Shown: piece after piece, positions 5,472-23,845 of the stretch
How the letters are laid out: each line of letters opens with the position of its first letter
Numbering within the stretch: the stretch's first letter is position 1
Assembly (NCBI GenBank): GCA_016218865.1
Contig: JACRCU010000253.1
Span: forward strand, 1 to 32,642
Origin: Deltaproteobacteria bacterium
Lineage (GTDB): Bacteria; Myxococcota_A; UBA9042
Length of the DNA stretch: 32,642 bases
Reading direction: 5' to 3'
Notes under the pieces: model-generated
Told to the model about the DNA's origin: nothing
What the model saw: only the letters and a program-made list of their open reading frames with translations
Database searches by the model: none
Position numbers and translations under genes: made by a program

Positions 5472-5537
5472 CCTGCCGCCCGCCGCCAATTTGCGCGACC
5501 GCGCCGGCTCGCGTACCGTTTGGGCCGGAGGCTCCGC

Positions 5538-7991
5538 ATGATCCCACGCGCGCCGCATTGGCGTTGGTCCCTAGTTGTCCTGGTCGTTTCCACGGTTTGC
5601 AGCTTGACGGCCTGCGGCGACATGCCCGCCGATACCGACAAGGTCGACAGCGCCACCGCCGTGACCGACGCCAGCACAGGCGACGCGAGCACCGGCGACA
5701 GCGCCGGCAGCGACACGGTCCCCACCGACACCATGGCCGGCGACGCCGCGGGGTGCACCCAGCAAAATACCTGCGCGGCCAAGGGCTTGGTGTGCGACCC
5801 CGCCAGCGGCGCCTGCGTGGCCTGCCTGACCAACGGCGACTGCGGCGACGGCGCCACCTGCACCAACCACCAGTGCACGCTGAGTCAGAGCTGCGACGGC
5901 GAGGCACCGGCCTGCGAGTCCCTTGGCGCCGTGCGGGTTTGTGACCCCATCAGCCACACCTGGCAGATCATCGCCTGCGGCGGCAAAAGTGTGTGCAGTG
6001 GCGGCGCCTGCCTGGTGAGCAAGTGCGCGCCGGACCAACTGCTCTGCGAAGGCAAGACCGCGGTCAAGTGCAGCAGCGACGGCCTGCAGACCACCCTGGT
6101 CAGCGACTGCGCTGCCAAGGGCCAGGGTTGTCTGGCCGGCCAGTGCGTGTCGCAGGTCTGCACGCCGGACCAGGCCACGTGCCAGGGCACGGCGATCGCC
6201 GTGTGCAGCCCCGACGGCATGGAGCAGCAGGTCGTGTTCGACTGCTCGATCTACAACGCAATCTGCGTGGCGGGCGACTGCCAGAAGCTGCCCTGTGCGC
6301 CCGGCACGTACGGCTGCATGGACAAGGAAGTCGTCAAGTGCAGCGACACCGGCTTCACTACCGTGGAGGATTGCGGCGCCAAGGGCCAAACCTGCGAAAA
6401 CGCCAGCTGCGTGGCGGCAGTCTGCCTGGCAGGCGAGGTCACCTGTACCGGCACGGTCCTCAACTACTGCAACGGCTCCGGCTCGGCGTGGCTGGAAGCG
6501 GTCGATTGCGCCATGGCCGGCAAGGGCGGCACGGGCATGTGCCTCAACGGTGCTTGCGTCGATCTGCCCTGCTTGCCCGGCGGCATCGGCTGCCAAGGGG
6601 ACACGGTCGTCCAGTGCGGGGCGACCAGCGAGGTCACGCCCATCGAGGACTGCGGATCCAAGGGCCTGCTCTGCATCAGCGGCACCTGTCAGGTGCCCGT
6701 GTGCCAACCCAACGAGTCGGTATGCGACGGCACCAAGGTGATGTACTGCGATGGCGGCAAAGCCTGGGTCGACGGGGGCGACTGCGCCGCGTTCGGCAAG
6801 GGGGCGTGCTTCCAGGGCCAGTGCATCAAGGCGCCGTGTCCGCCGGGCGGCATCGGCTGCGCCGGCCTGGACGTGGTGCAGTGCGACGCCAACGGCGGCT
6901 GGGCCGTGATCGACCCGTGCAGCGAGCAGGGCAAAGCCTGCAGCGGCGGCGTGTGCCAAGTGCCGGTCTGCGCGCCGAACACCACCAGCTGCAACGGCAG
7001 CATAGCGATGGTGTGCAGCCCGGACGGCATGACCTGGTACGCGGAGCAAGACTGCTCCAAGCAAGGCCAATTCTGCGACCAGGGCAAGTGCATTTCGCAA
7101 CTGTGCACTGCCGGCACTACCGGCTGCTTTGGCAAGTCCACTGCGGTTTGCGCCGCCGACGGCATGGCCTGGAGCGAGACCCCCTGCGGCAGCAAGGTCT
7201 GCGACGCCGGCGCCTGCACCGCGGCCAAGTGCGCACTCCCCAAGACCTATCCCGCCGACGCAGTGTGGCTGCACTGGATCGAGCCCAAAAGCGGCACCGG
7301 CTGCGACCTGAACGGCGACGGCAAGGCCGACAACACCCTGTTCAAGATGATCGGCATCGTCCTGGCCGGCGGGCAGGGCCCCTTTGGCGGCGGCAAGCCG
7401 TTCGTCATGGCCCTGGTCGCCCAGAACTATTCCACGGCCGGCGCGGCCTTCGAGCTGCAATTGCTGCCCAGCTTGACCGTGGCCGGCACGCCGGTCTGCG
7501 AGCCGTTTGAAAAAGGCGTCCAGAACTGTTCGCTGGTGCCCGATGTCAGCGGCTATCAGCTGAGCAGCGCCGCCGCCACCTGTCCGGCGGTCACGGGCTG
7601 GCAAGACGCCAAGGTGACCAACGGCACGCTGCAGGCCGGCGGCCCGGCGGCGACCGTGGCCCTGCCGATGACGGCGGCGCCGACGTCCAAGTCCTACTGG
7701 CTCAAGGGGGCGCGTATCCAGGCCACGGTGCCGTCCGGCGCCACCATGAGCACCCTGAACAGCGGAACGCTGTGCGGCTGGTTGAGCCAGACGGACCTGG
7801 ACACCATCGTCGACAACCTGCCGCCGTCCTTCTATGCCGAGACGGGCATGGATCCGGCCGCGATCAAGACCATGCTCATGCAGAACAGCCCGGCCGACAT
7901 CGACAGCGACGGCAACGGCAGCCCGGATGCCTACTCGTTCGGCCTGGACTTTGCCGGCGACCCGGTCACGCTCGCGCCGGTCATGCCGTGA
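5538..7991 (+). CDS. lipoprotein with about ten six-Cys repeats and a Ca-loop-containing C-terminal domain
   Basis: 817 residues from the ATG at 5538 (GGAGG with a 7 nt spacer; a TTG 18 bp upstream has no better signal). The lipobox is LTAC with the lipidated Cys at 26, followed by an Asp/Ser/Thr/Ala-rich tether to about residue 75. From about 118 to 565 there are about ten repeats of roughly 43 residues with six Cys each, of the form C-x5-6-C-...-C-...-C-...-C-...-C, e.g. CAPDQLLCEGKTAVKC. Repeats often contain GCxG, VQC/VKC and KGxxC. The last ~250 residues are a separate domain with an Asp-rich calcium-type loop DLNGDGKADN at 590 and a second, DIDSDGNGSPD, at 787. Presumably it is surface- or periplasm-facing, with disulfide-stabilised repeats. 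No enzymatic motif is seen and function is unknown. Its stop lies 22 bp from the convergent end of the next lipoprotein gene. Confidence 0.87.
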   Translation: MIPRAPHWRWSLVVLVVSTVCSLTACGDMPADTDKVDSATAVTDASTGDASTGDSAGSDTVPTDTMAGDAAGCTQQNTCAAKGLVCDPASGACVACLTNGDCGDGATCTNHQCTLSQSCDGEAPACESLGAVRVCDPISHTWQIIACGGKSVCSGGACLVSKCAPDQLLCEGKTAVKCSSDGLQTTLVSDCAAKGQGCLAGQCVSQVCTPDQATCQGTAIAVCSPDGMEQQVVFDCSIYNAICVAGDCQKLPCAPGTYGCMDKEVVKCSDTGFTTVEDCGAKGQTCENASCVAAVCLAGEVTCTGTVLNYCNGSGSAWLEAVDCAMAGKGGTGMCLNGACVDLPCLPGGIGCQGDTVVQCGATSEVTPIEDCGSKGLLCISGTCQVPVCQPNESVCDGTKVMYCDGGKAWVDGGDCAAFGKGACFQGQCIKAPCPPGGIGCAGLDVVQCDANGGWAVIDPCSEQGKACSGGVCQVPVCAPNTTSCNGSIAMVCSPDGMTWYAEQDCSKQGQFCDQGKCISQLCTAGTTGCFGKSTAVCAADGMAWSETPCGSKVCDAGACTAAKCALPKTYPADAVWLHWIEPKSGTGCDLNGDGKADNTLFKMIGIVLAGGQGPFGGGKPFVMALVAQNYSTAGAAFELQLLPSLTVAGTPVCEPFEKGVQNCSLVPDVSGYQLSSAAATCPAVTGWQDAKVTNGTLQAGGPAATVALPMTAAPTSKSYWLKGARIQATVPSGATMSTLNSGTLCGWLSQTDLDTIVDNLPPSFYAETGMDPAAIKTMLMQNSPADIDSDGNGSPDAYSFGLDFAGDPVTLAPVMP

Positions 7992-8013: not shown

Positions 8014-8754
8014 CTACGGGCACCATTTGTCCTTGTCGGGACAGCAATCGCCCATTTCTGTGCAGACCTCGTCGCAGTAGCAGCTGCCCGCCGAGGTGCC
8101 GCAAGAGCCCTGGCAACTGCCCATGACCGGGCCGCAATCCTGCGGGCAGCCGTTGGACTCGCCGGGGGCGCAGTTGCCGTCGCCGCAGCTGGGCTTGTCC
8201 GGGCAGTCGCTGGAGCAGGTGTACCAACTCTCGGTCGCGGTCGAGCAGCTGCCGTTGCCACACGGGTCTTGGCCGGTGCAGTCGCTGGGGCAGATCTGCG
8301 CGGTTTCCGGGTGGTTGCAGGCCCCGTCGCCGCAGGTGGCGACCACCGGGCAGTCGGTGGGGCAGCTGACGGCCTCGCCCGGGTTGCAGGCTCCGTTGCC
8401 GCAGGCGCCCGTCATGGTGCAGTCCTTGGCGCAGTTGCCGGCGGTCTCGCCTTTGGTGCAGGCGCCGTCGCCGCAGACGGACTGGATCTTGCAGTCTGCA
8501 GGGCAGGTTGCGGCCGTTTCGCCGGCGGAGCACGCGCCGTCGCCACAGCTGGGTGCCGTGTCGCTGTCGGCCGCCGCGACTTCGCCGCCCGTATCTCCCG
8601 TATCTCCCGCGCCGTCCGCGCCGTCGCTGTCGCCGGTGGCATCGGCGGTGGCGTCGACCGCGGTCGCCGGGCCAGGGGCCGTCTCGCAGCCCGCCGCCGC
8701 TGCGCCCATGGTCAGTGCCATCAGCAAGTGGCAGAAAATACGACAGTGTGGCAT
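8014..8754 (-). CDS. Cys-rich lipoprotein: six CGxGxC repeats plus somatomedin-B-like domain
   Basis: 246 residues from the ATG at 8754. That start is chosen because MPHCRIFCHLLMALTMG gives a signal peptide with lipobox AAGC (lipidated Cys23) and a GAGG lies just upstream; an in-frame start at 8820 would add 22 residues and bury the signal. A tether rich in Asp, Ala, Gly and Thr spans about 24-68. Six repeats of about 22 residues follow, each with four Cys: CGDGACSAGETAATCPADC is the first, and the pattern is CG[DN]GxCxxxE...CxxDC. The end (about 212-245) has eight Cys spaced as in somatomedin-B domains, including CYCDEVC and GDCC. It is the last gene of a minus-strand set, starting 40 bp after the stop of the 610-residue radical SAM gene, so co-transcription is likely. 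It may be a structural or binding protein, or a substrate of the adjacent radical SAM enzymes; the latter is inference only. Confidence 0.85.
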   Translation of the reverse strand: MPHCRIFCHLLMALTMGAAAAGCETAPGPATAVDATADATGDSDGADGAGDTGDTGGEVAAADSDTAPSCGDGACSAGETAATCPADCKIQSVCGDGACTKGETAGNCAKDCTMTGACGNGACNPGEAVSCPTDCPVVATCGDGACNHPETAQICPSDCTGQDPCGNGSCSTATESWYTCSSDCPDKPSCGDGNCAPGESNGCPQDCGPVMGSCQGSCGTSAGSCYCDEVCTEMGDCCPDKDKWCP

Positions 8755-8794
8755 GGCGCCTCGCCCCCGGATCGCCGAGAAGCACACGAGCATC

Positions 8795-10627
8795 TCAGCA
8801 CTTTTGTCCCGCAGCGGCAACCGGCCAGCCGTCTACGCGCGGTCCGGCCACCAAATGCAGCACGTCGTCGCGGGTTTCGGCGTCGTCCGCCGCTGGCGTA
8901 GGTGGGGCGCAAAGCGAGGCTTCGGCTGCGGTGGCCAGATCGCCCAAGCCCTGTTCGCGCCACTGGCCCGCCCGCTGCCGCAGACACGCAACCCAGCACG
9001 CCCACAGCGCTTCGCCCAGCGCCCCCGGCACCACCTGCAGCATCCGCGCCGCCAGTGTGGAAAATTCCGCAGTGGCGCGCTCGCCGTCGCCCTGCTGCCA
9101 GGGCACCGACCCCAGGCCATCCCAGGCGAGCACCGGCCGGCCGTCGGGGGGCTCGAAGCCGGCGCGCAGCACCATGCGCGGTCGGTGCCAGGCGTCGCCC
9201 AAGTAGGGCGTGGTCAGACCGGTGTCCAGCGGCACCAGCTGCAGCGAAATCGGCGCGTCGGGCTGCTCGCACAGCAGGCCCGGCTGTGGCGCATAGCCCA
9301 CAAAGGCCGGCCAGCCCGGCATGGCCAGCGTGCGCAAGCTCGCCTCGACCAGCTCGCGGACCAGCTGTTGGGCAAAGACGGCGCGATCTGCGGCCCGCAG
9401 CGACCACAGCCGCCGCAGCAGGGGCAGGTGCACGCGCCGCCACGGGCGATGGACGGCAAAGGTCCATGGCAGATCGGGCGCACAGGTCGCCAAGAGCTGG
9501 GCGGCCTGCTGGTCCAGCCACCCGTCGCGCAGGTGTGGCCACTGGTCGGCCAGGTAGACGGCGGCCGCGGTGCGCAGTTCGCCCGCCAAAGTCCCGGGTT
9601 GCGACCCCTGCAGCCAGCGCTGCCAGCGGTGCCGCAGTTCGGGCAGGTGGGCAAACCCCAGCACCTCCGCCACGACCGTCTGCTCCAGCGCCCGGTCCAA
9701 CTTGTCCAGGTCCAGCGGCTGGCGCTGCAGCCCTGGCGGCACCCGGTCCATCCAGGTAGCCGGAAGGGCGCGCAAACTCAGCAGTTCGCCGTTCGGGCCG
9801 CGCGGCGTCAGCACCACCTCGCCGGCAAAGGCCAGCTCGCCAGCGTCGAGTGGCTCGGCGTCGCTCTCTTGCGCGGACCCCAGCCGCACCACCGGACCCA
9901 GCCGAAACACGTCGTCCGCCCGCAGTTGGGCAAAGCGCAGCTCCCAGCGCTCGGCCAGGCCGGGGTGCAGGTCGCCGAGCACCGCCGCCACCGCATCGCG
10001 GCGCACGTATCCGGCGGTCGTCAGGCGCGGATCCGTAGCCAAGAACCGGACTTGTAGGTCAGCGTGGGCTTCGGCCTCCAGCGCCAGCGCGTGTTCGATG
10101 CGGCGGGCAAAGGCCGACTCACCCACGGCGCGGCGGTGCCAGGCGTCGACCGACAGCGTCAGCACCAGCCGCCCCGGGCCGCTGCGCAGGTGGGTCTCGG
10201 CCCACTGCTGGAACTTGTCGGCATCCAACGGCAAGGTCGCGCCACCGGTGATGATTTCCACCTCGGCGGCGGTGCGCCGCAGCAGCGCCAGGGCCGCACG
10301 CAAGTCGGGATGGGCCAACGGCTCGCCACCCACCACTAGGATGCGGGGAATCCCGGCGAGCTGTCGAGCCAGCGCCTGGAGTTGCGGCAACTCGATGCGC
10401 CGCCCGCCGCCGCGCACCGCCCCGGCCAGGCAAAACGCGCAATCCAGCGGACAGTCCTGCGTCAGATCCAACACCACTTCGGCCGGCGCCGACTTGAGGC
10501 CGCCGCGGTACAGGCGCGTGCGCTGATAGAACGACGCAAAATGCAGTGGTTCGATCTGGGCGAGCCCCAGAAGCTGCGCCGCCGCCGGGCCGATTGCCGC
10601 GCCACCGGTCGCAGCGTGGGTCATCAC
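8795..10627 (-). CDS. radical SAM protein with long C-terminal region (610 aa)
   Basis: A radical SAM enzyme, with the 4Fe-4S/SAM motif CPLDCAFC at Cys59, Cys63 and Cys66, followed by a GGE-type SAM-binding segment VVGGEPLAHPDL near residue 97. The radical SAM barrel covers roughly 48-270. The remaining ~340 residues are Leu/Ala/Arg-rich, mostly helical in appearance, and match no family I know. There is no SPASM-like C-terminal Cys cluster, only isolated Cys and a terminal QKC. The GTG at 10627 overlaps the upstream gene's TGA (GTGATGA). An ATG at 10624 is the alternative start, so translation is probably coupled to the 731-residue radical SAM gene. The reaction is unknown. Context (a second radical SAM protein upstream, a Cys-rich lipoprotein downstream) fits peptide or protein modification, but a cofactor or small-molecule role is equally possible. 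Confidence 0.85.
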   Translation of the reverse strand: MMTHAATGGAAIGPAAAQLLGLAQIEPLHFASFYQRTRLYRGGLKSAPAEVVLDLTQDCPLDCAFCLAGAVRGGGRRIELPQLQALARQLAGIPRILVVGGEPLAHPDLRAALALLRRTAAEVEIITGGATLPLDADKFQQWAETHLRSGPGRLVLTLSVDAWHRRAVGESAFARRIEHALALEAEAHADLQVRFLATDPRLTTAGYVRRDAVAAVLGDLHPGLAERWELRFAQLRADDVFRLGPVVRLGSAQESDAEPLDAGELAFAGEVVLTPRGPNGELLSLRALPATWMDRVPPGLQRQPLDLDKLDRALEQTVVAEVLGFAHLPELRHRWQRWLQGSQPGTLAGELRTAAAVYLADQWPHLRDGWLDQQAAQLLATCAPDLPWTFAVHRPWRRVHLPLLRRLWSLRAADRAVFAQQLVRELVEASLRTLAMPGWPAFVGYAPQPGLLCEQPDAPISLQLVPLDTGLTTPYLGDAWHRPRMVLRAGFEPPDGRPVLAWDGLGSVPWQQGDGERATAEFSTLAARMLQVVPGALGEALWACWVACLRQRAGQWREQGLGDLATAAEASLCAPPTPAADDAETRDDVLHLVAGPRVDGWPVAAAGQKC

Positions 10628-12819
10628 GGCTGGGACCGGCGCCGATCGGCCGCGCCTTCGCCGGCGACCTGCGTGGCCAGGCCCGGGTTGGCTCCGGCCA
10701 CCGAGTGGTCGAAGGTGCAGTACTTACACAGCGGCAGAGTGCCGGCCTGCTGGCGAAACTCGGCGGCGCGCGGGCTTTGCAGGATCTCGACCAAGCTGGC
10801 GTCGGCGACATTGCCCACCGAGCAGCTGTCGTCGAACTGCATTACGGGCTGGTTGCAGAGCCGCACGCTGCCGTCGCCGCGCACCGACACCAGGTGCTCC
10901 GTGATGCGGCAGGGCGCCGAGCCGTCGAAAATCCGGCTGTACTCGCCGTCGGCGATGCGCGCGGCGGTGGCGTCGCTGCAGCTGCACGCCTCGTCGATGC
11001 CGGTGTCGCCTTCGGTGTCGATGGCCGGCCGCACCCCCACGTGCACGCCCAGCTCGCGCCCCAGGCGCCGGGCCTCGGGCAGAATTTCGCGAATCAACTT
11101 CAGGCTTTGAGCCTTGTCCAGCAGCGGCGTGGCGTTGCCGAACTCGGCCACCGGCTGGCAGAGGAACATGGTCACACCGGCCAGCCCCAGCTGGGCCGAC
11201 AGGCGCACCACACCGGGCAGCACCTCGAAATTGGCTGGCGTAATCACAGTGTTTAGACCCACGTGCGGCGCACCCAGGCGCTTGAGCTCGCTCGCGGCGC
11301 GCACGGCGGCGTCGAACATGCCCGGCCGGCCCTTCAGGTCGTCGTGCACCGCCGGGTCGGCCGAGTCGATCGAGATCGACAGGTCGGTGATGCCCGCCCG
11401 CGCCAGGTCCAGCAGCTGCTTGTCGCTGAGGCCGAGCCCAGTGGTCGTGACAAAGGTCTGCAGTCCCAGGACCTTGGCATGGGCCAGCAGGGCGATGAGG
11501 TCAGGGCGCAGCGTCACCTCGCCGCCGAAAAGCTCCAGCGAGACCCCGCCCAGCGCCACCACCTCTTCCAGCACGCGGAACACCCGCGCGATCGGCATGT
11601 CCTCGCGCAGACGCAGCGGCAGATCGCAATAGCGACAGACGGTTACGCAGCGCCGATTGAGGGCCAAGGTCACGTGCTCCAGCCGCAACGGCGGCGGTGC
11701 GCCAGGTTGCGCCACCTCGGTCCAGAGCCACCACTGCCCCTGGCGGAAGTGCAGGTCGTCGCCCCGGTGCGGCCAATCGGCCTGGCGCAGCTGCAGCGCC
11801 GAGCCCAGCAGACTCCGCGCCACCCGCGCGGCACTCGCCGGCCGCAGCGGCACCTTGGCGCCGGCCACTGCCAATCCGGGCTCGCGGCCCAGCACCAGCA
11901 CGCCCGCTGGCCGCGGACCGTTCCGCAAGCGCCGCGCCAACTGCAGGCGGGTCTGGCGGCGCCCCAGGTCGGCACCCGAGATCAGCAGCAGAGGAGCGCC
12001 CTTGCCGGTCGTGTCGGCCAGCGGCAGCAGCTCTTCGCCCAGGACTTCCACGGGCCCGGTCCGCCCCAGGGCCGCGCGCGCGGCCGCCAGTTGCTCCGCC
12101 GTCTCTTGCCAGGGATCGCCGAGTTGCCAACAGCCGGCGCATTCGCTGCGCAGCACGCAAGTGCGGCAGGGCTCCTGCAGCACCAGCAGCCGCCCGTCCG
12201 GGCCCGCGCCGCTGCCGCGCACCCGCGCCGCCACCGCGGCATCGTCGGGGCACCGTTCGCTGCGCAATACGCGATACTGCTCGCCTTCTTGCAGCCAGAC
12301 CTGTGCCGGGCCGTCTTGCCGCGGGCCCACGTCGGGGCGCTTGCTGCAGCGCTGCACCGCGAACGTCCGCAACTCGGCGCTGGGCAACACCAAGAAATCG
12401 CCAAGCTCTGTCTGGGCTTCCTCGCTATCGCGGCCCTGCAAGGCGCCGAGAAGGTGGCGGGCCAGCTCGGCACCGTCGACCAGCTGGCCCAGACGCTGCA
12501 CGATCCGCTGCGCCACCGCGCCGTGCTCCGCCGTGCCGCTCCCTTCCAGGTAGCCGAGGTCGAAGCGGTCGCTGCGCACAAAGGCCGGCCGATTGGGGTC
12601 TTTCTCGCCCAGCGTCGCCACCACCGCGCGCCCGCCGACCGCCAGTTCCAGCCGCACTTCGCCCGGCCGCCACTGGCCGCCCACCAGGTCGAGTCCGGCC
12701 GCGCGCAGCGCCTGCTGCAGCCCAGCAAGGCGACCCGGCGGCAGCGACTCCAGAGCCAGCCGCTGCTCAAGACCCGATTCATTCGGGCGGGGCGGCTGGT
12801 TTGGGGCAGGGTGGCTCAC
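10624..12819 (-). CDS. radical SAM protein with N-terminal Cys cluster and SPASM-like C-terminus (731 aa)
   Basis: The radical SAM core begins at about 383, with CVTVCRYC (Cys391, Cys395, Cys398) and the GGE motif ELFGGEVTLRPDL at about 429. The C-terminal part carries further Cys (612, 614, 637, 655, 666, 698, 701), including RLCNQP and LCKYC. This resembles SPASM/twitch regions that bind auxiliary Fe-S clusters in peptide-modifying enzymes. The first ~380 residues are unusual and contain another potential cluster, CRTCVLRSECAGCW (Cys218, 221, 227, 230). The start is a GTG at 12819 with no clear Shine-Dalgarno. A -10-like TAGCAT lies 6 nt before the GTG, so a leaderless transcript is possible. 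It is the first gene of the minus-strand cassette and its TGA overlaps the next start. The family assignment to radical SAM is firm; substrate and product are unknown. Confidence 0.87.
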   Translation of the reverse strand: MSHPAPNQPPRPNESGLEQRLALESLPPGRLAGLQQALRAAGLDLVGGQWRPGEVRLELAVGGRAVVATLGEKDPNRPAFVRSDRFDLGYLEGSGTAEHGAVAQRIVQRLGQLVDGAELARHLLGALQGRDSEEAQTELGDFLVLPSAELRTFAVQRCSKRPDVGPRQDGPAQVWLQEGEQYRVLRSERCPDDAAVAARVRGSGAGPDGRLLVLQEPCRTCVLRSECAGCWQLGDPWQETAEQLAAARAALGRTGPVEVLGEELLPLADTTGKGAPLLLISGADLGRRQTRLQLARRLRNGPRPAGVLVLGREPGLAVAGAKVPLRPASAARVARSLLGSALQLRQADWPHRGDDLHFRQGQWWLWTEVAQPGAPPPLRLEHVTLALNRRCVTVCRYCDLPLRLREDMPIARVFRVLEEVVALGGVSLELFGGEVTLRPDLIALLAHAKVLGLQTFVTTTGLGLSDKQLLDLARAGITDLSISIDSADPAVHDDLKGRPGMFDAAVRAASELKRLGAPHVGLNTVITPANFEVLPGVVRLSAQLGLAGVTMFLCQPVAEFGNATPLLDKAQSLKLIREILPEARRLGRELGVHVGVRPAIDTEGDTGIDEACSCSDATAARIADGEYSRIFDGSAPCRITEHLVSVRGDGSVRLCNQPVMQFDDSCSVGNVADASLVEILQSPRAAEFRQQAGTLPLCKYCTFDHSVAGANPGLATQVAGEGAADRRRSQP

Positions 12820-13138: not shown

Positions 13139-13534
13139 ATGGGCGAAACGCTGGCTACTTCAGGTGGTTCCCAGGTACAGACCTGGCTGGCCGCCGTGGG
13201 CTTCGTGCTGTTCTCGATGGTCATCGCTGCAACGATGCTGGGCGCGGCCAAGCTGTTCGCAGTAAAGTCCAAGAAGCCCGGCGCCTTGCGGGATCGTCCC
13301 TACGAGTGCGGCGAAGAGCCGGTGGGCGAGACGCGCATCCAGTTCCACCCGCGCTACTACGTCGTGGCGCTGTTCTTCGTCCTGTTCGACGTGGAAGCGG
13401 CGTTCCTGTTCCCGTGGGCGCTGGTGCTGAGCAAGCTGGGCGTGGCCGCCTTGGTGCTGATGGGCATCTTCATGGCGGTCCTGATGCTCGGTTGGCTGTA
13501 CGCGCTGAAGAAGGAGGCCCTGCGATGGCAGTAA
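13139..13534 (+). CDS. nuoA: NADH-quinone oxidoreductase subunit A (NuoA)
   Basis: A 131-residue membrane subunit of respiratory complex I. It sits at the junction between the peripheral arm and the membrane arm, next to NuoH, NuoJ and NuoK, where its long loop forms part of the quinone-site gate. Family marks are RPYECGEEPVG (Cys57 in the loop), IQFHPRYYVVALFFVLFDVEAAFLFPW with Asp84 and Glu86, and three hydrophobic segments. Length is normal. The ATG at 13139 has GGGAGG 7 nt upstream; earlier in-frame starts would add a non-conserved extension. It is the first gene of the operon and overlaps the next gene by 10 bp. Confidence 0.97.
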   Translation: MGETLATSGGSQVQTWLAAVGFVLFSMVIAATMLGAAKLFAVKSKKPGALRDRPYECGEEPVGETRIQFHPRYYVVALFFVLFDVEAAFLFPWALVLSKLGVAALVLMGIFMAVLMLGWLYALKKEALRWQ

Positions 13535-14676
13535 TCGACGAGTCGGGCCAGGCCTACGACCATCCGCTCTACACCACCCTCATCAACGTGCCGGGTCTGT
13601 CGGTGGCCGTCGCCTCGATCGACCAGCTGCTGACCTGGGGCGCCAAGAACGCGCTGTACATCTTCCCCATGGCCACCTCGTGCTGCGGCATCGAGTTCAT
13701 GGCCACCGCCGCCGCCCGCGTCGACATCGACCGCATCGGCTCGATCGTGCGGGCCACGCCGCGACAAGCCGACGTGATGGTCATCGCCGGCACCATCACC
13801 GTGAAAATGGCCCCCAAGGTCAAGCGGTTGTGGGACCAGATGCCCGAACCCAAGTGGGCCATCGCCATGGGCTCGTGCGCCATCTCGGGCGACTTCTACC
13901 GCGACCTGTACCCCACCGTGCCCGGCATCGACACCATCCTGCCGGTCGACGTCTACGTGCCCGGCTGCCCGCCGGACCCGCAGGCGCTGATGCACGGCAT
14001 GCTGCGGCTGCAAGAGAAGATCGCCGCCAAACAGGCCGGCACGTGGCGTGCCCCGGAACTCCGCCCAGAGACCGAGAAAATGCACGGTCCGGCGGTGCGG
14101 CGCATCGACGACCCCGAGCGCGACCCAGCCATTACCGCCGAGCAGTCGCGGCAAGCGGGCCTGCAGTCGCCCGACGCGCCCGAAGGCGAGCTGGACTGGC
14201 GCGGCGCCGAGCCCGTGCCGGTGCAGGCCGCCCTGGAACTCGAAGCCCTGCTGCGCGAGCGCTTTGGCATCGAGGACTTCCCGGCCGACAGCGCGCCGAT
14301 CGTGCCGCGCGACCGCCACCTGGAGCTGGCCAACACCTTGAAGGCCATGGGCTATTCGCTGCTCATCTACGTGGTGGCGTCGCACTGGCCCAAGCCCGAG
14401 GGCGACACCTTCGAGGTGGCGTACGCCCTGCGCAGCCCCAATGCCGGCGCAAAACTGGCCCAGTGGCGCGTGGTTCTGCAGCCCGGCGAGACCATCGAGT
14501 CGCTGGCCAGCGTGTTCGCCGCCGCCGACTGGCAAGAGCGCGAGCAGTACGATCTGTTGGGCGTCCACTTTGCCAACCACCCGGATCTGCGCCGCATCAT
14601 GCTGCCCGAGAATTGGCAGGGCCACCCCCTGCGCCGCGACTACGCCGCCGATACCGCCTGCCGCCCTTGGCGCTAG
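13525..14676 (+). CDS. nuoBC: fused NADH-quinone oxidoreductase subunits B and C (NuoB-NuoC)
   Basis: One 383-residue reading frame carries two complex I peripheral-arm subunits that are usually separate. Residues 1 to about 172 are NuoB, with the ligands of terminal cluster N2: the tandem Cys53-Cys54 in ATSCCGIEF, Cys118 in MGSCAISG and Cys148 in VPGCPPDP. Residues 173-230 are a charged linker. Residues about 231-383 are NuoC (30-kDa subunit), with the signature EREQYDLLGVHFANHPDLRR and the end WQGHPLRRDY. The ATG at 13525 lies inside the end of nuoA, with AAGGAGG 7 nt upstream, giving translational coupling. No stop or frameshift lies between the halves. NuoC-NuoD fusions are well known (E. 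coli), whereas B-C fusion is less familiar to me. Confidence 0.96.
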   Translation: MAVIDESGQAYDHPLYTTLINVPGLSVAVASIDQLLTWGAKNALYIFPMATSCCGIEFMATAAARVDIDRIGSIVRATPRQADVMVIAGTITVKMAPKVKRLWDQMPEPKWAIAMGSCAISGDFYRDLYPTVPGIDTILPVDVYVPGCPPDPQALMHGMLRLQEKIAAKQAGTWRAPELRPETEKMHGPAVRRIDDPERDPAITAEQSRQAGLQSPDAPEGELDWRGAEPVPVQAALELEALLRERFGIEDFPADSAPIVPRDRHLELANTLKAMGYSLLIYVVASHWPKPEGDTFEVAYALRSPNAGAKLAQWRVVLQPGETIESLASVFAAADWQEREQYDLLGVHFANHPDLRRIMLPENWQGHPLRRDYAADTACRPWR

Positions 14677-14739
14677 CCGCCGCGCCCGCCCGCCCGGCTG
14701 TTGCGCCGGGATGAGTACTGCAACTGCCTGGAGATGCTG

Positions 14740-15927
14740 ATGAACGCCCGCCATCCCGGCCCGACCTCCGACCGCTACCGCCTTGAGCAAATGGACGCCG
14801 ACGCGGACCTCATGGTGCTCAACTTTGGGCCGCAGCACCCCAGCACCCACGGTGTGTTCCGCATCAAGCTGATCCTGGACGGCGAGGTGGTGGTCCGAGC
14901 GATTCCCTACGCCGGCTACCTGCACCGCGGCGTGGAAAAGCTGCTGGAAAGGCTCACCTTTGCTCAGGGCGTGCCGATCGTCGACAAGAACGACTACGTG
15001 GCGCCGATGACCAACGAGCAGGCGCTGGTGATGGCGTTCGAGAAGCTGCTGAAGATCGAGGTGCCGCGGCGCGCCCGGTGGATGCGCACGATTTTCGCCG
15101 AGTTGCAGCGCATCGCCTCGCACATGCTGTGGCTGGGCACCTTTGCCCTGGACATGGGCGGCGCGCTGGGCGGCGGCTCGGGCGTGTTCATCTACACCTT
15201 CCGCGAGCGCGATTACATCTTGGATTTGTTCGAGATGGTCACCGGCGGGCGCTTCCACTACAACACCCACACCATCGGCGGCAACCGCCACGACATCCCG
15301 CCGGGTTGGGACCGCGAAGTCACCAAGGTGCTGGATCTCATCGAGTCGCGCCTGCCCGAGTACGAGGCGATGAGCAGCAACAACGCCATCTTCGTCGCTC
15401 GCACCAAGGGCGTGGGCGTCATCGACAAAGAGCTGGCGCTGGGCCTTGGCCTGACCGGACCGATTCTGCGCGCCTCGGGTGTCGACTTCGACCTGCGCCG
15501 CGACGCGCCGTACCACGCCTACGACGAGCTGAAGGTCAACGTGGCCACTGCCACCGCCGGCGACTGCCAGGCGCGCGCCCAGGTGCGGGTGGCCGAGCTG
15601 CGCGATTCGATTCGCCTGGTGCGCCAGGGGCTTGCGGGGCTGCCCGAGGGCGGCATCAACGGCGGCAAGCCCATCAAGATGCCCCAGCAGTTCAAGACCA
15701 TGACCGGCCAGGCCTACGTGGGCATCGACACACCGCGCGGCGAGCTGGGCACCTTCGTGGTGGCGGGCGGCGGCGACAAGGGCACTGCGCCGTACCGCTG
15801 CAAGATCCGCGCCCCCAGCCTGCACGCGCTGTCGGCGCTGCCGTGGATCCTCCCGGGGCATACGGTCAGCGACGTGGTGGTCATCCTGGGCTCGCTCGAC
15901 CCGATCATGGGCGAGGTTGACCGTTAG
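14740..15927 (+). CDS. nuoD: NADH-quinone oxidoreductase subunit D (NuoD)
   Basis: A 395-residue, 49-kDa-type subunit that forms the quinone-binding pocket of complex I together with NuoB. Conserved stretches include NFGPQHPSTHGVFR (the His of the quinone site), YLHRGVEKLLE, DYVAPMTNEQ (the Tyr of the quinone site), GGSGVFIYTFRERD and the C-terminal DPIMGEVDR. The ATG at 14740 is chosen because GGAG lies 6 nt before it; the ATG at 14734 has no spacing for that site, and an upstream TTG at 14701 has no support. The gap to the fused nuoBC is 63 bp. After it comes 117 bp of non-coding DNA rather than nuoE/F/G. Length is normal for the family. Confidence 0.97.
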   Translation: MNARHPGPTSDRYRLEQMDADADLMVLNFGPQHPSTHGVFRIKLILDGEVVVRAIPYAGYLHRGVEKLLERLTFAQGVPIVDKNDYVAPMTNEQALVMAFEKLLKIEVPRRARWMRTIFAELQRIASHMLWLGTFALDMGGALGGGSGVFIYTFRERDYILDLFEMVTGGRFHYNTHTIGGNRHDIPPGWDREVTKVLDLIESRLPEYEAMSSNNAIFVARTKGVGVIDKELALGLGLTGPILRASGVDFDLRRDAPYHAYDELKVNVATATAGDCQARAQVRVAELRDSIRLVRQGLAGLPEGGINGGKPIKMPQQFKTMTGQAYVGIDTPRGELGTFVVAGGGDKGTAPYRCKIRAPSLHALSALPWILPGHTVSDVVVILGSLDPIMGEVDR

Positions 15928-16044
15928 AATTCCAAGGGGTTTCACTGGCGCGGTCCGGCGCTGCGGCCCACAGCTGGCACCCACCGGCCGGAAAGCGGGC
16001 CAGGAAACGGGCAAGGGCTAAACGGGAAAGGGTAAGGAGTGATC
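15928..16044. other. nuoD-nuoH gap where nuoEFG would lie
   Basis: 117 bp, the longest gap inside the operon. The second half (about 15991-16039) is G/A-rich on the plus strand and ends in the nuoH ribosome site AAGGAG (16034-16039). No remnant of nuoE, nuoF or nuoG coding sequence can be recognised, and no terminator is seen. Confidence 0.6.
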
Positions 16045-17022
16045 ATGCAAGGACTGCTGCGCGGCTTGGTCTACGGTGGTTTGATCATCACCGTGCTGAT
16101 GACCGCAACGGCGTGGGGCATGTGGCTCGAGCGGAAGCTGGCGGCGCGCATGCAGTCGCGAATTGGCCCGAACGTGGTCGGCAAATTCGGCCTGCTGCAG
16201 CCGGTGGCCGACCTGATGAAGCTGCTGCAAAAAGAAGAGATCTACCCGATCGGCGCCGACCGCCTGCTGTTCGACCTGGCGCCGTTCCTGGTCACCACCT
16301 TCGCCATCGCCACCGCCGCGGTGGTGCCGTTCTCGGCCGAGGCCGTGGGCGCCGACCTGGACGTGGGTCTGCTGTGGGTGCTGGCGTTGGGCGGCCTGAT
16401 GGTCATCCCGGTGTGGATGGCGGGCTGGGCGTCCAACAACAAGTTCGCCCTCATCGGCGGCATGCGCGCGGTGGCCCAGTCGATCAGCTACGGCGTGCCG
16501 CTGGTGCTGACGTCGCTGGTGGCGGTGGTGTTCACGGGTACCATGAGCCTGTCGGGCATCGTGAAATTCCAGATCGAGCACGGCTGGCTGGCGCTGTGGC
16601 CGCCCGGTCCCGGCGTGGTCGCCTTCGTCCTGTTCTACATGGCGCTGCTGGCCGAGTCGAACCGCATCCCCTTCGACATCCCCGAGGCCGAGTCCGAGCT
16701 GGTGGCCGGTATCACCACCGAGTACACCGGCATGAAGTTCGGCCTGCTGTATGTGGGCGAATACGTTCACACCATGGTCGGTTCGGCCATCGCCGCCGTC
16801 ATCTTCCTGGGCGGCTGGGACGGCCCGTTCCACATCGCCTCGGGCCTGCACTGGATGGTCATCAAGACGGTGGCCCTGTTCGCCAGCGTGTACTGGGTGC
16901 GGTGGTCGCTGCTTCGCTTCCGCTCGGACCAGCTGATGCGGCTGTGCTGGCTGTACCTGGTGCCGGTGTCGCTGGGACTTGTGGTTTTCGCTGCGCTTTG
17001 GCGCCATTTCGTGCTGCGCTAG
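16045..17022 (+). CDS. nuoH: NADH-quinone oxidoreductase subunit H (NuoH)
   Basis: A 325-residue multi-pass membrane subunit (ND1 type) that holds the quinone tunnel and joins the peripheral arm to the membrane arm. Diagnostic stretches are LERKLAARMQSRIGPNVVG, LLQPVADLMKLLQKEE, AESNRIPFDIPEAESELVAG and EYTGMKFGLLYVGEY. These carry the acidic loop residues that line the channel entrance. The ATG at 16045 is preceded by AAGGAG with 5 nt spacing; a GTG at 16039 overlaps that site and is unlikely. Length fits the family. NuoI begins 21 bp after its stop. Confidence 0.97.
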   Translation: MQGLLRGLVYGGLIITVLMTATAWGMWLERKLAARMQSRIGPNVVGKFGLLQPVADLMKLLQKEEIYPIGADRLLFDLAPFLVTTFAIATAAVVPFSAEAVGADLDVGLLWVLALGGLMVIPVWMAGWASNNKFALIGGMRAVAQSISYGVPLVLTSLVAVVFTGTMSLSGIVKFQIEHGWLALWPPGPGVVAFVLFYMALLAESNRIPFDIPEAESELVAGITTEYTGMKFGLLYVGEYVHTMVGSAIAAVIFLGGWDGPFHIASGLHWMVIKTVALFASVYWVRWSLLRFRSDQLMRLCWLYLVPVSLGLVVFAALWRHFVLR

Positions 17023-17043
17023 TCCGAGCCGTAGGAGTCGCTG

Positions 17044-17679
17044 ATGGGATACCTGCTCGACAGCATTCGGGCGCTGGGAGTCACCGCCAAGAACATCGGC
17101 CGCAAGCCGGTGACGGTGCAATTCCCCAAAGTCATTCGCGAGCGCCAAGAGCGCTACCGCACCAGCTTTGCCCTGCTCAAGGACGAACAAGGCGAAGAGC
17201 GCTGCGTGGGGTGCCTGGCCTGTGAACGCATCTGCCCGTCGCAGATCATCCACATGTCCAGCACCAAGAAGGAATCGCCGGTGACCGGCAAAAAGCGCGG
17301 CTACCTCGACGATTTCACGCTGGACATGACGGCCTGCATCTTCTGCGAGCTGTGCGTGCAGGTCTGCCCGTTCGACGCCATCGTGATGCTCAAAGTGCCG
17401 CACGAGCCGGGCTACGTCCGCGAAGACCTGGTCCTCACCATGGCGAAGCTCTACGAGAATGCCGAGAAGCCGCTGACCTGGGGCAATGGCACCAAGCTGA
17501 TGGAGATGCAGGAGCCGCCCAAGCCCGCGCCCGCCCAGGCTGCGGCTCCGGTTCCGGCTCCGGCTGCGGCTCCGGTTCCGGCTGCGGTTCCGGTTCCGGC
17601 TGCGGCTCCGGCTCCGGCTCCGGTTCCGGTTCCGGCATCTGCGGCTGCCGCCGAGCCGGCAAAGACGGAGGCGCCATGA
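17044..17679 (+). CDS. nuoI: NADH-quinone oxidoreductase subunit I (NuoI) with Pro/Ala-rich C-terminal tail
   Basis: 211 residues. The ferredoxin-like core carries the two 4Fe-4S clusters N6a and N6b of complex I. Their ligands are Cys54, Cys57, Cys60 and Cys64 in CVGCLACERIC, and Cys98, Cys101, Cys104 and Cys108 in CIFCELCVQVC. The core ends near residue 160. The last ~50 residues are almost only Pro, Ala and Val (PVPAPAAAPVPAAVPV), encoded by a hexanucleotide array, and are not part of the usual subunit. GGAG lies 6 nt before the ATG. Its stop overlaps the nuoJ start (ATGA). The tail should project from the cytosolic arm; its role is unknown. Confidence 0.96.
   Translation: MGYLLDSIRALGVTAKNIGRKPVTVQFPKVIRERQERYRTSFALLKDEQGEERCVGCLACERICPSQIIHMSSTKKESPVTGKKRGYLDDFTLDMTACIFCELCVQVCPFDAIVMLKVPHEPGYVREDLVLTMAKLYENAEKPLTWGNGTKLMEMQEPPKPAPAQAAAPVPAPAAAPVPAAVPVPAAAPAPAPVPVPASAAAAEPAKTEAP
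17538..17633 (+). repeat. hexanucleotide array GGYTSC, 16 units, in nuoI
   Basis: Sixteen uninterrupted six-base units made only of ggctgc, ggctcc and ggttcc. In frame they give alternating Ala/Val-Pro and Ala-Ala pairs. Unit changes would add or remove two residues without shifting frame, so length variation between strains is plausible. The antisense reads as a Glu-Pro repeat but is not a gene. Confidence 0.9.
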
Positions 17680-18275
17680 ACCTGGAAATGCTGATGCAAG
17701 ACCCGGCCCTGTGGGGGTTGGGAATCGCCACGCTGGCGTTCGCCATGCTGGCGGTCTCGGTCAAGAACCTGGTGCACGCCGTGCTGTGGCTGGGCATGTC
17801 GCTGCTGGGCACGGCGGCGCTGTTCGCCAAGTTCGACGCGTCGTTCCTGGCCGCCATCCAGGTGCTGCTGTACGTGGGCGGCGTGGTGGTGCTGCTGATC
17901 TTCGGCGTGATGCTGACCCGCGAGCACGACAACTTGGCGGCCTTTCGCACCACGCGGCGGCCGGTGCGGGCGGCGCTGGTGGCGATCGCCCTCTTTGTCG
18001 GCCTGGTGCACGCCATCCTGAACACCCCCGGTCTGGGCGACCCGTCGGCTGGCAAGCTGGTGAGCATGCCCGACCTGGGCATGTCGCTGCTGGGGCCGTA
18101 CGCCTTTGCCTTCGAGGTGTTGTCGCTGCTGCTGCTGGCCGCCATGGTCGGCGCGGTGGTGCTGGCGCGCAAGCGCGACCCCGGGCAGCCGTCTGCCAAG
18201 AAGTTGATTCGTCACCGCAACCTGGGGCGGCAGGTCGTCGAAGGCCTGGCCGCGACCGACGAGGTGGGCCAATGA
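17676..18275 (+). CDS. nuoJ: NADH-quinone oxidoreductase subunit J (NuoJ)
   Basis: A 199-residue membrane subunit (ND6 type) with five hydrophobic segments. The conserved region is VLLYVGGVVVLLIFGVMLTRE, where the pi-bulge helix TM3 of complex I lies. The Tyr-Val-Gly-Gly and the loop after it match the family. The ATG overlaps the nuoI stop (ATGA at 17676-17679), with GACGGAG 5 nt upstream. Its own stop overlaps nuoK in the same way. The C-terminal ~25 residues are basic and polar (KKLIRHRNLGRQ) and probably cytosolic. Confidence 0.96.
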   Translation: MNLEMLMQDPALWGLGIATLAFAMLAVSVKNLVHAVLWLGMSLLGTAALFAKFDASFLAAIQVLLYVGGVVVLLIFGVMLTREHDNLAAFRTTRRPVRAALVAIALFVGLVHAILNTPGLGDPSAGKLVSMPDLGMSLLGPYAFAFEVLSLLLLAAMVGAVVLARKRDPGQPSAKKLIRHRNLGRQVVEGLAATDEVGQ

Positions 18276-18565
18276 TCGCCATCCTCCTCATCGCCTCGGC
18301 GCTGTTCTGCGCCGGCGTGTTCGGTCTGCTGACGCAGAAGCATGCGATCGGCGTAATGATTGCCATTGAAGTTATGATTAACGCCGCCAATTTGGTGCTG
18401 GTCGGGCTGGGCCAGCACAAGGGCGCCGCCGTCGGCCAGAGCTTTGCCTTGTTCACCATCGCCATCGCGGTGGCCGAGGTGGTGGTCGGGCTGGCGATCG
18501 TCCTTCTTCTCTATCGGTCGCGGGGCGACGTGCAGGTCGACGAAGCCCGGGAGATGCGTCAATGA
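18272..18565 (+). CDS. nuoK: NADH-quinone oxidoreductase subunit K (NuoK)
   Basis: A 97-residue three-helix membrane subunit (ND4L type). The two membrane glutamates needed for proton transfer are present: Glu33 in MIAIEVMINAANL and Glu69 in IAVAEVVVGLAI. Length is normal. It is coupled to both neighbours by ATGA overlaps. Confidence 0.97.
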   Translation: MIAILLIASALFCAGVFGLLTQKHAIGVMIAIEVMINAANLVLVGLGQHKGAAVGQSFALFTIAIAVAEVVVGLAIVLLLYRSRGDVQVDEAREMRQ

Positions 18566-20376
18566 GTCCGCTGCTTATGGCCGCGCTGGCCACCCTTGGC
18601 ATCCCTGCCGGTCTGACCCTGCTCTTTGGCGTGCTGCCGATGCTGCGCCGCACGGGCAAGCCGGCCGCCATCCTGTCGATCCTGGGCGCCACCTCGGTGC
18701 TGGGCATCGCCGGCTGGCTGTTCGCCACCTGGCTCGGCAACCCGACCGAAGTCATTCAGCAATCCACCGCCTGGCTGGTCCAGGCCGGCCGGCCCCTGGG
18801 CGAAGTCGGCGTCCGCTTGGACGGCATCTCGGTGTCGATGCTGCTGGTGGTGGCGGTGGTGGCCTGGTGCGTGCAAGTGTTCTCGCTGGGTTACCTGAGC
18901 GACGAGCCGCCCAACGGCCTGGGCCGCTACTTCACCTACCAATCGCTGTTCCTGTTCAGCATGAACCTGCTGGTGCTCGCCCCGGACCTGATGCAGCTGT
19001 TCATCGGCTGGGAGCTGGTCGGCGCCACCTCGTACCTGCTGATTGGTTTTTGGTATCCCAAGCCGGCCGCGGCCAAGGCGGCGATTAAAGCCTTTGTAGT
19101 CACCAAGTTCGCCGATTCGGGCCTCATCCTGGGCCTGTTGGTGCTGGCTGCGCAGACCGGCAGCTTCGCTTGGGATGCCCCGCTGGGCACCGGCGTGGCC
19201 GAAGTCGTCGCCGGGCTGCTGTTCGTGGCGGTGATGGGCAAGTCCGCGCAGTTCCCGCTGCACATCTGGTTGCCCGACGCCATGCAGGGTCCCACGCCGG
19301 TGTCGGCCCTGCTGCACGCCGCGACGATGGTGGCCGCCGGCGTCTACCTGATCGTCCGCGCCGATCCGATCTTTGCCGCCGCCACCCACGTGCGCGAATT
19401 CATGACGCAGCTCGGTGCGTTCACGGCGCTGTTCGCCGCCATCGTGGCTACGGTCCAGACCGACATCAAGAAGGTGCTGGCGTATTCCACGTGCTCGCAG
19501 CTGGGTTACATGATCTCGGGCCTGGGCGCCGGGTCGCTGCTGGGCGGCTACTTCCACCTGACCACCCACGCCTTCTTCAAGGCGCTGCTCTTCCTCGCGG
19601 CCGGCGCGGTCATCCACGCGGTGCACAGCAACGAGTTCGAGGACATGGGCGGCCTGTGGAAGAAGCTGAAGTTCGTGGCCATCGCCTTCGTCTTCGGCTC
19701 GCTGTCGCTGGCGGGCGTGCCCGGTCTGGCCGGCTTCTACAGCAAGGACCTGATTCTAGAGGCCGTCCACGAGTCGGGCGACCACTTCGCCCTGGCGGCG
19801 CTGCTGCTGACCGCGGGCCTGACCGCCTTCTACATGACCCGCGCGGTGGTCAAGACCTTCCTGGGCCAGATGAGCCACGCCGCCGAGCACGCGCACGGCC
19901 CTGGGCCGTCGATGAGCCTGCCGCTGCTGGTGCTGCTGGTGCCGACCATCGCCCTGGGTTGGGCGGCGCAGCCGTTCGCCACGCTGTTCGGTAAGCCCTA
20001 CGAATTTCACATGGGCACAGTGGGTTATGCGGCGATCGGTCTGGGTCTGGGCGGCATCGCTCTGGGCTACCTGGTCTACGGCGTGGGCGCCCTGGGCTTC
20101 CTGCCGCGGCTGTTCGCCCCGCTGGGCAAGCTGGCGCGCAGCTCGCTGATGGATGAGCTCTGGCAGTCGGTCTACGAGATCGGCGGCCAGACGCCGTCGC
20201 GGGCCGCCGCGTGGATCGACCGCTACGTCGTCGACGGTCTGATGAATTTCTTGGGATGGCTCACCATCGTGGCCGGTCAGCAGCTCCGCAAGCTGCAGAC
20301 GGGCGACGTGCAGGACTATCTGTACGCGGTCTTTGGCGCGGCCGCCCTTCTCGCACTGTTTGGAGGCTGGCGATGA
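18562..20376 (+). CDS. nuoL: NADH-quinone oxidoreductase subunit L (NuoL)
   Basis: A 604-residue antiporter-like membrane subunit (ND5 type) at the far end of the membrane arm, one of the three proton-pumping half-channel proteins. The glutamate of TM5 is Glu151 (FIGWELVGATSYLLIGFWY) and the TM7 lysine is Lys227 (VMGKSAQFPLHIWLPDAM), so the core pumping residues are kept. The segment PTPVSALLHAATMVAAGVYL and the end with the lateral helix region (DELWQSVYEIGGQTPSRAAAW, then a last membrane segment) fit full-length NuoL. ATGA overlaps join it to nuoK and nuoM. Confidence 0.97.
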   Translation: MSPLLMAALATLGIPAGLTLLFGVLPMLRRTGKPAAILSILGATSVLGIAGWLFATWLGNPTEVIQQSTAWLVQAGRPLGEVGVRLDGISVSMLLVVAVVAWCVQVFSLGYLSDEPPNGLGRYFTYQSLFLFSMNLLVLAPDLMQLFIGWELVGATSYLLIGFWYPKPAAAKAAIKAFVVTKFADSGLILGLLVLAAQTGSFAWDAPLGTGVAEVVAGLLFVAVMGKSAQFPLHIWLPDAMQGPTPVSALLHAATMVAAGVYLIVRADPIFAAATHVREFMTQLGAFTALFAAIVATVQTDIKKVLAYSTCSQLGYMISGLGAGSLLGGYFHLTTHAFFKALLFLAAGAVIHAVHSNEFEDMGGLWKKLKFVAIAFVFGSLSLAGVPGLAGFYSKDLILEAVHESGDHFALAALLLTAGLTAFYMTRAVVKTFLGQMSHAAEHAHGPGPSMSLPLLVLLVPTIALGWAAQPFATLFGKPYEFHMGTVGYAAIGLGLGGIALGYLVYGVGALGFLPRLFAPLGKLARSSLMDELWQSVYEIGGQTPSRAAAWIDRYVVDGLMNFLGWLTIVAGQQLRKLQTGDVQDYLYAVFGAAALLALFGGWR

Positions 20377-22424: not shown

Positions 22425-23845
22425 GCCTCGCTGATCTGCAACCCCTGATGTTGGGGCTGATTGTGGCCTGCGCCGCGCTGTTGCTGCTGCTGGTTGACCT
22501 GCTGCTCAAGCCCTCGGCCCGCCCGACCCTGGGCTGGCTGACCTTTGCCATCCTGACCGGCACGCTCGCCGCGTCGTGGCTGCTCCCCCTCGACGGCGAA
22601 GTGCAGGCCGGCGTCTGGCAAGGCAGCCTGTGGACAACCTTTTTGGCCCGCTTGATGCTCGGTGCCGCGGCGCTGGCGGTGTTGGGCGGCCTGGACTACG
22701 TCGCCCGCGCCTGGCCATACCGTCAGGGCGAGTACTACACGCTATTGCTGTTTTCGCTGGCGGGCATGGTGTTGCTGCCGGGCTGCCGCGAGCTGGCGGC
22801 ATTCGTGGTGTGCTTCGAGCTGATGGGCATTCCGCTCTACGTCCTGGCCGCCTTTGGCAAGAACGAAAACGGTCGCAAGCCCGCCGAAGCCGGCATGAAA
22901 CTGCTCTTGATTGGCGCCGCCTCTACCGCGATCACCTTCTTTGGCGCGGCGCTGCTGGTCGGCCTCGCTGGCTCCAGCCGCTTCGTCGAGCTGGTGCCCT
23001 ACGAGCCCGGCCCCCTGCACGGGGTCGCGGCCCTGCTGCTGCTGGCCGGTATGGCCTTCAAGATCGGTGTGGCGCCGTTTCACATGTGGGTGCCGGATAC
23101 CTACGAGGGCGCGCCCACGCCGGTGGTCGCGTTCCTGTCGGTCGCGCCCAAAGTCGCTGGGTTTGCTGCCTTTGCTTCGGTGTTTCTGGTGGCGACCCCC
23201 ACCCTGGCCAGCACCTGGCGACCGATGCTGTGGCTCCTGGTCGTCATCACCATGGTGATCGGCAACCTGGTGGCCATTCCGCAGAAGAACCTGAAGCGCC
23301 TGATGGCGTTTTCGGGTGTCGCCCAGGTCGGTTACATCCTGCTCGGCTTCTTGGGTGGCGTGGAATTCGGCGCCGCGATGATGCTGTTCTACCTGGCCGC
23401 CTATCTGTTTGCCAATGTGGGCATGTTCCTGGTCGCCCACGCCATCGCCGAGGCCGGCGAAGGCGAGGATATCGTCCACCTCAACGGCCTGGCGCGCCGC
23501 TCGCCCTGGCTGGCGCTGGCGCTCTTGATGTTCCTGCTCAGCCTGGCCGGCATCCCGTTCGTCGCCGGCTTCTGGGCCAAGTTCTATGTGTTCACCGCGG
23601 CTTGGCGTGCCGGTCACGGCGAGATGGTGCTCCTCGGCGCCCTGTTCGCCACCGTGGCGCTGTTCTACTACCTGGGCGTGGCGCGCGCGGCGTTCGTCAA
23701 CAAGAGCGAACGGAGCGGCCCGGTGCCCGTCAAGCGCCCGCTGGCCCTGGCGATTGTCGTCTGCCTGCTCGGCACCGTAGGCCTGGGCGCGTGGCCCAAC
23801 CCGCTGGTCGAGGCGGCGCTGGCGGCGGTCCAGGGTCTTTACTAG
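22421..23845 (+). CDS. nuoN: NADH-quinone oxidoreductase subunit N (NuoN)
   Basis: A 474-residue antiporter-like membrane subunit (ND2 type), the third proton-pumping unit. The key residues are kept: Glu133 in FVVCFELMGIPLYVL, Lys214 in MAFKIGVAPFHMWVPDTYEG, Lys244 in SVAPKVAGFAA, and the late-helix Lys in GFWAKFYVFTAAW. PTPVVAFLSVAPK is diagnostic for NuoN rather than NuoL or NuoM. GGAGGTG lies 4 nt before the ATG, which overlaps the nuoM stop. It is the last gene of the operon; 73 bp follow before the next gene. Confidence 0.97.
   Translation: MSLADLQPLMLGLIVACAALLLLLVDLLLKPSARPTLGWLTFAILTGTLAASWLLPLDGEVQAGVWQGSLWTTFLARLMLGAAALAVLGGLDYVARAWPYRQGEYYTLLLFSLAGMVLLPGCRELAAFVVCFELMGIPLYVLAAFGKNENGRKPAEAGMKLLLIGAASTAITFFGAALLVGLAGSSRFVELVPYEPGPLHGVAALLLLAGMAFKIGVAPFHMWVPDTYEGAPTPVVAFLSVAPKVAGFAAFASVFLVATPTLASTWRPMLWLLVVITMVIGNLVAIPQKNLKRLMAFSGVAQVGYILLGFLGGVEFGAAMMLFYLAAYLFANVGMFLVAHAIAEAGEGEDIVHLNGLARRSPWLALALLMFLLSLAGIPFVAGFWAKFYVFTAAWRAGHGEMVLLGALFATVALFYYLGVARAAFVNKSERSGPVPVKRPLALAIVVCLLGTVGLGAWPNPLVEAALAAVQGLY

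Follow-up and report, generated by a model that had tools for sequence, protein, structure and literature searches.

Closest described systems

Many SPASM/twitch enzymes of the radical SAM superfamily work on peptides, and two-enzyme RiPP systems are known. In the His-Xaa-Ser system two radical SAM genes, HxsB and HxsC, work as a pair, while the family TIGR04133 (rSAM_w_lipo) holds, as its name states, radical SAM/SPASM proteins encoded beside a lipoprotein gene. The auxiliary cluster of BtrN has four Cys ligands and is thought to take an electron in a two-electron oxidation, and MoaA represents the type of cluster with an open site (PMC9012708). Four-Cys clusters of the BtrN type, as well as those of PqqE and SuiB, accompany two-electron oxidations (PMC9012708), and for PapB the hand-over of an electron between proteins has been demonstrated (PMC10470005). 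Here we describe a gene pair from Myxococcota, encoding the proteins A and B, for which our literature search found no described system of the same make-up; no described family was found to fit A or B. The preliminary description, too, knew of no described system made up of the two enzymes and a lipoprotein.

Gene organization of the locus

The stretch of DNA analyzed, here called the window, is the entire 32.6 kb contig C128 of a Myxococcota MAG (G000) that is ~82% complete. Three consecutive ORFs on the minus strand encode protein A (10624-12819, 731 aa), protein B (8795-10627, 610 aa) and a small lipoprotein (8014-8754, 246 aa from its likely start). Protein A combines an N-terminal Cys-cluster region with a radical SAM domain and a C-terminal twitch domain, and protein B has an N-terminal radical SAM domain followed by a C-terminal region of ~300 aa. 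The GTG/ATG start of B overlaps the stop of A (A runs to 10624 and B starts from 10627), and the likely start of the small lipoprotein, ATG 8754, lies 41 bp past the stop of B. The preliminary description, in which the three genes run in one direction with overlapping A and B and a lipoprotein 40 bp further on, is thus confirmed. No terminator was found, and given the 41-bp gap the small lipoprotein may be co-transcribed with B in the window. A large Cys-rich lipoprotein with the lipobox LTAC and an uncertain start is encoded convergently (5520-7991, plus strand).

Divergent from A, a complex I operon (13196-23845, plus strand) contains nuoA, an apparent nuoB-nuoC fusion, nuoD, nuoH, nuoI and further subunits. 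Model comparison covered NuoD and NuoH, and genes for an NADH module (nuoE, F, G) were not evident in this stretch. Further along, a radical SAM enzyme of the AmmeMemoRadiSam system (27671-28780, plus strand; 540 bits to TIGR04337) has its start within the final part of a gene for a caspase-like plus CsgG-like protein (25971-27689), and none of the other usual genes of that system were seen in the window. The genome as a whole is rich in radical SAM proteins, with 52 Radical_SAM matches, 51 of which exceed the cut-off of Pfam; some of the proteins have two Radical_SAM domains in one frame (contigs C537 and C160).

A and B form a conserved unit

In order to survey the pair within the Myxococcota, single-protein searches were run against 284 genomes of the phylum and profile searches against 52 genomes of the class, and the B profile was extended to 379 genomes of the phylum. 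Genes at the loci were called with a home-made codon-usage caller. Full-length B was identified in 11 of the 379 genomes (G000, G026, G079, G119, G258, G234, G191, G226, G138, G040 and G003; MAGs of 68-96% completeness), and in all 11 it is adjacent or fused to A, which is far beyond chance. The B gene of G258 is split across two contigs, the gene order in G191 is B-A, and in G003, which belongs to another class, B and A are fused in a single ORF of 1371 aa. Within the class, 42 of the 52 genomes lack the pair. A twelfth genome, G009, contains only an 80-aa remnant of B (L129:8208-8450). A short B fragment lacking a full gene was also observed on contig C23 of G079 (L130, about 7602-7784); both fragments are probably decayed copies of the pair. 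Plasmid records that were searched gave only generic radical SAM matches.

The trees of A and B are congruent (Mantel r 0.89, a value reached in 0 of 5000 permutations) and depart from the taxonomy: the G234 pair clusters with another family, and the pairs of G003 and G191 group together. Congruent trees at odds with taxonomy indicate that the pair has been inherited as a unit, with a patchy distribution that arose through transfer or loss. Of the coupled system proposed in the preliminary description, the coupling of A and B is hence upheld by adjacency, fusion and congruent trees, while the lipoprotein drops out as a partner (see below). We conclude that A-B is a so far unnamed and uncharacterised radical SAM family pair in Myxococcota.

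Domain structure of A and B

Both proteins belong to the radical SAM superfamily, with PF04055 matches above the cut-off (1.7e-18 for A and 2.6e-9 for B) and a nearly invariant CxxxCxxC motif. In A this motif for the SAM-binding 4Fe-4S cluster comprises C391, C395 and C398 (11626-11649, minus strand), and in B it comprises C59, C63 and C66 (10430-10453, minus strand), followed by an equally conserved GGEP at residues 100-103. B has no other Pfam domain, and its C-terminal ~300 residues gave neither Pfam nor NCBIfam matches. AlphaFold models of A and B, built from two-row alignments, reached mean pLDDT values of 40 and 45 and were unusable.

The C-terminal domain of A is matched by the Pfam family SPASM (4.7e-9), and the preliminary description likewise spoke of enzymes with SPASM-like regions. 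The seven-Cys motif of a two-cluster SPASM domain was not found in A, the domain having just four conserved Cys, arranged as C637-X17-C655-X42-C698-X2-C701 (10717-10911, minus strand) and spaced 18, 42-43 and 3 residues apart in all relatives. The Pfam label is therefore too generous, and a single auxiliary cluster is expected. In hmmsearch, BtrN (PDB 4m7s/4m7t) was matched both by the full A profile (E 6e-8) and by a profile restricted to this domain (E 6e-6), and the four Cys align; the Cys spacing (CX17C ... CX2C) and the homology to BtrN thus identify a twitch domain, in which the cluster itself is predicted. The extra Cys clusters ascribed to A in the preliminary description do exist. Besides the twitch Cys, A has an additional site formed by C158 and a CX2CX5C motif (C218, C221 and C227; 12139-12348, minus strand), all in nearly invariant alignment columns, which from its sequence is presumed to be a metal site. 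The nearest solved relatives of the radical SAM core of A are PqqE, BlsE and SkfB.

The N-terminal part of A varies between genomes in a way that reveals its origin. In G138 (L069:6547-9522) protein A opens with a second radical SAM domain that is intact, and two such domains are likewise present in the G226 copy of A, which is cut by a contig end (L068:2-2368). In G191 (L067) and G003 (L071) a barrel-like N-terminal remnant has no Cys motif, and in the window and in G040 the extra domain is gone. This domain thus forms an evolutionary series, from intact through loss of the Cys motif to absence, to which the B-A fusion may be added.

The small lipoprotein is a separate element

The small lipoprotein has the lipobox AAGC and, as first described, six CG[DN]GxC repeats with four Cys per unit (8134-8547, minus strand), in the order CGDGAC, CGDGAC, CGNGAC, CGDGAC, CGNGSC and CGDGNC. 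Its C-terminus resembles the disulfide domain Somatomedin_B (8020-8118, minus strand; Pfam E 2e-4, just short of the cut-off), and this domain is present also in the orthologue at locus L127.

From the position of this gene it had been proposed that A and B modify the lipoprotein, either in its CGDGxC repeats or in the lipid-anchor region. The shared strand, the 41-bp gap and the possible common transcript in the window are consistent with such a role, to which we nevertheless attach hardly any credence. In the nearest relative, G026, A and B are 79% and 69% identical to those of the window and both flanks align, but the lipoprotein stretch is absent, whether through loss or from the outset, and the stops of B and the convergent gene are 38 bp apart. 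No CGDGxC units were found in the genes called at the other ten pair loci, so that B and the lipoprotein are adjacent in the window only. The best full-length orthologues of the lipoprotein occur in G119 (61% identity over 154 aa), where the orthologue and the A-B pair are on separate contigs (C92 against C171), and in G221 (57% over 155 aa), a genome of 77% completeness in which no B was detected by profile search. Proteins with CGDGxC repeats were matched in 49 of 53 related genomes, with up to 43 matches per genome, and the four Cys per repeat together with the Somatomedin_B-like domain suggest an ordinary exported disulfide-rich protein. Based on the absence in G026 and on the orthologues found away from the pair, we judge the small lipoprotein to lie outside the A-B unit. 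The co-occurrence as neighbours by which the proposal was to be checked is not seen. For lipoproteins of this type the outcome named in advance as refuting it was in fact observed, since at all ten other loci the homologues of the pair occur without a CGDGxC lipoprotein nearby. The small lipoprotein is very probably not the target of A and B, and as a substrate it was rejected on synteny and orthologue positions; dropping it from the hypothesis spares experiments on the wrong substrate.

In G119 and G221 alike, the orthologue has a large Cys-rich lipoprotein as its tail-to-tail neighbour, and this neighbour shows homology to the 5520-7991 gene over 667 aa, including the non-repeat C-terminal domain. 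The conserved neighbour of the small lipoprotein is consequently the large lipoprotein and not the enzymes. The tail-to-tail pair of a large and a small (CGDGxC/Somatomedin_B) lipoprotein is kept in the window, G119 and G221, and the small lipoprotein of the window would thus be a remnant of this separate pair. The window genome encodes paralogues of the large lipoprotein at other sites (66% and 44% identical in the C-terminal domain), and these have neither a small lipoprotein nor a radical SAM gene as neighbour, and the large lipoprotein, too, is outside the A-B unit.

Candidate substrates of the pair

No third gene common to the pair loci was found beyond A and B, only generic or weak pairwise matches. 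The neighbours include nuclease, M48 peptidase, GDSL lipase, thioesterase-like, HEAT and ankyrin genes and show no theme. Within 2 kb of the pair, no small ORF was common to the loci outside the closest pair of loci, and a linked precursor peptide was rejected for lack of such a shared ORF. With no recurring third gene, no shared small ORF and neighbours without a theme, the substrate is either a small molecule or the product of a gene at another site.

One candidate function is peptide (RiPP) maturation, with a small precursor that escaped notice or has its gene at a distant site. Such a role would fit the relationship of the radical SAM core of A to PqqE, BlsE and SkfB, the peptide substrates of many SPASM/twitch enzymes and the existence of two-enzyme RiPP systems. 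Against it stand the missing small ORF and the lack of any PqqD/RRE-like domain in Pfam searches up to E 1, so that neither a linked precursor nor an RRE domain marks a RiPP maturation cassette. At the G003 fusion, moreover, only 16 bp are free upstream and 8 bp downstream, and no adjacent precursor therefore fits. We regard peptide maturation as rather unlikely.

A small molecule such as a sugar, cofactor, nucleoside or lipid head group, modified in the manner of BtrN or BlsE, is a possible substrate that we put forward tentatively. The twitch domain is nearest to BtrN and the core is near BlsE, both of them small-molecule enzymes; a linked peptide is missing, and the patchy distribution is that of accessory metabolism. 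Recurring biosynthetic genes are not seen near the pair, however, and similarity of the core does not predict the substrate.

The pair could also work in trans on the Cys-rich surface lipoproteins, of which most genomes of the group encode a large number. A Cys-rich gene is located within three genes of the pair at 6 of 10 testable loci, compared with 25 of 92 (27%) random two-gene slots in the same genomes, a modest excess with a binomial p of ~0.03 that ignores kinship (the window and G026 share their neighbour) and is uncorrected for contig ends, the choice of threshold and the use of a home-made gene caller. These Cys-rich genes are non-homologous between loci, except for the window and G026, and lie on either strand, and most of the 42 class genomes without the pair hold such lipoproteins all the same. 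We treat this hint of a general link between the pair and secreted Cys-rich proteins as weak, and action in trans on the lipoprotein pool appears very improbable.

Proposed function

Taken together, the A-B pair is probably a stand-alone two-enzyme radical SAM module with an unlinked substrate, and the lipoprotein next to it in the window a chance neighbour. The fusion and the co-inheritance imply that A and B act in one pathway, most likely as a protein complex. In such a complex, B would contribute one SAM-cleaving radical centre, and A a second one together with a twitch auxiliary 4Fe-4S cluster that, like that of BtrN, would have four Cys as its full set of ligands. This cluster would most likely accept an electron, giving a net two-electron oxidation or a bond-forming step, and the N-terminal Cys site of A may carry a further cluster. 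By analogy to PapB, the partner may provide a second step or electron transfer. Since A ends in a four-Cys BtrN-like twitch domain, a two-electron radical oxidation on an unlinked substrate is our best guess. A more elaborate version, in which A-B is an obligate two-enzyme machine whose fullest forms (as in G138 and G226) would have as many as three SAM centres and which performs an undescribed multi-step modification, possibly on Cys-rich surface lipoproteins, seems improbable. As a two-enzyme system, the stand-alone module offers a testable case of cooperation between radical SAM enzymes.

Comparison with known systems

None of the named NCBIfam radical SAM families listed, including PqqE, BlsE, MoaA and HxsC, reached its cut-off with A, B or two relatives. 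The prokaryotic viperins of anti-phage defence were considered and rejected, as the PADLOC matches to A (37-47 bits) and the NCBIfam viperin match (38 bits against a cut-off of 180) reflect similarity at the superfamily level only. A scores 46.8 bits against TIGR04133, for which the cut-off is 425, and no NCBIfam model matched the small lipoprotein, so that the locus differs from the rSAM_w_lipo system in both components. The HxsB/HxsC pair has a different domain make-up; the HxsC model gave 35 bits against a cut-off of 268, and no His-Xaa-Ser precursor was found. The SPASM-twitch proteins PqqE, BlsE and SkfB are closest to A in the radical SAM core, but A is far under their family cut-offs (90 bits against 381 for PqqE), and the pair is not accompanied by partner genes of the pqq, bls or skf type. 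With BtrN, the radical SAM dehydrogenase of butirosin, A shares a single twitch 4Fe-4S cluster (predicted in A) with the same order of four Cys and the X17 and X2 spacings. BtrN, however, is small (PDB chain of ~270 aa) and acts as a single enzyme, whereas in A the radical SAM domain is preceded by ~380 aa and a conserved partner enzyme is present.
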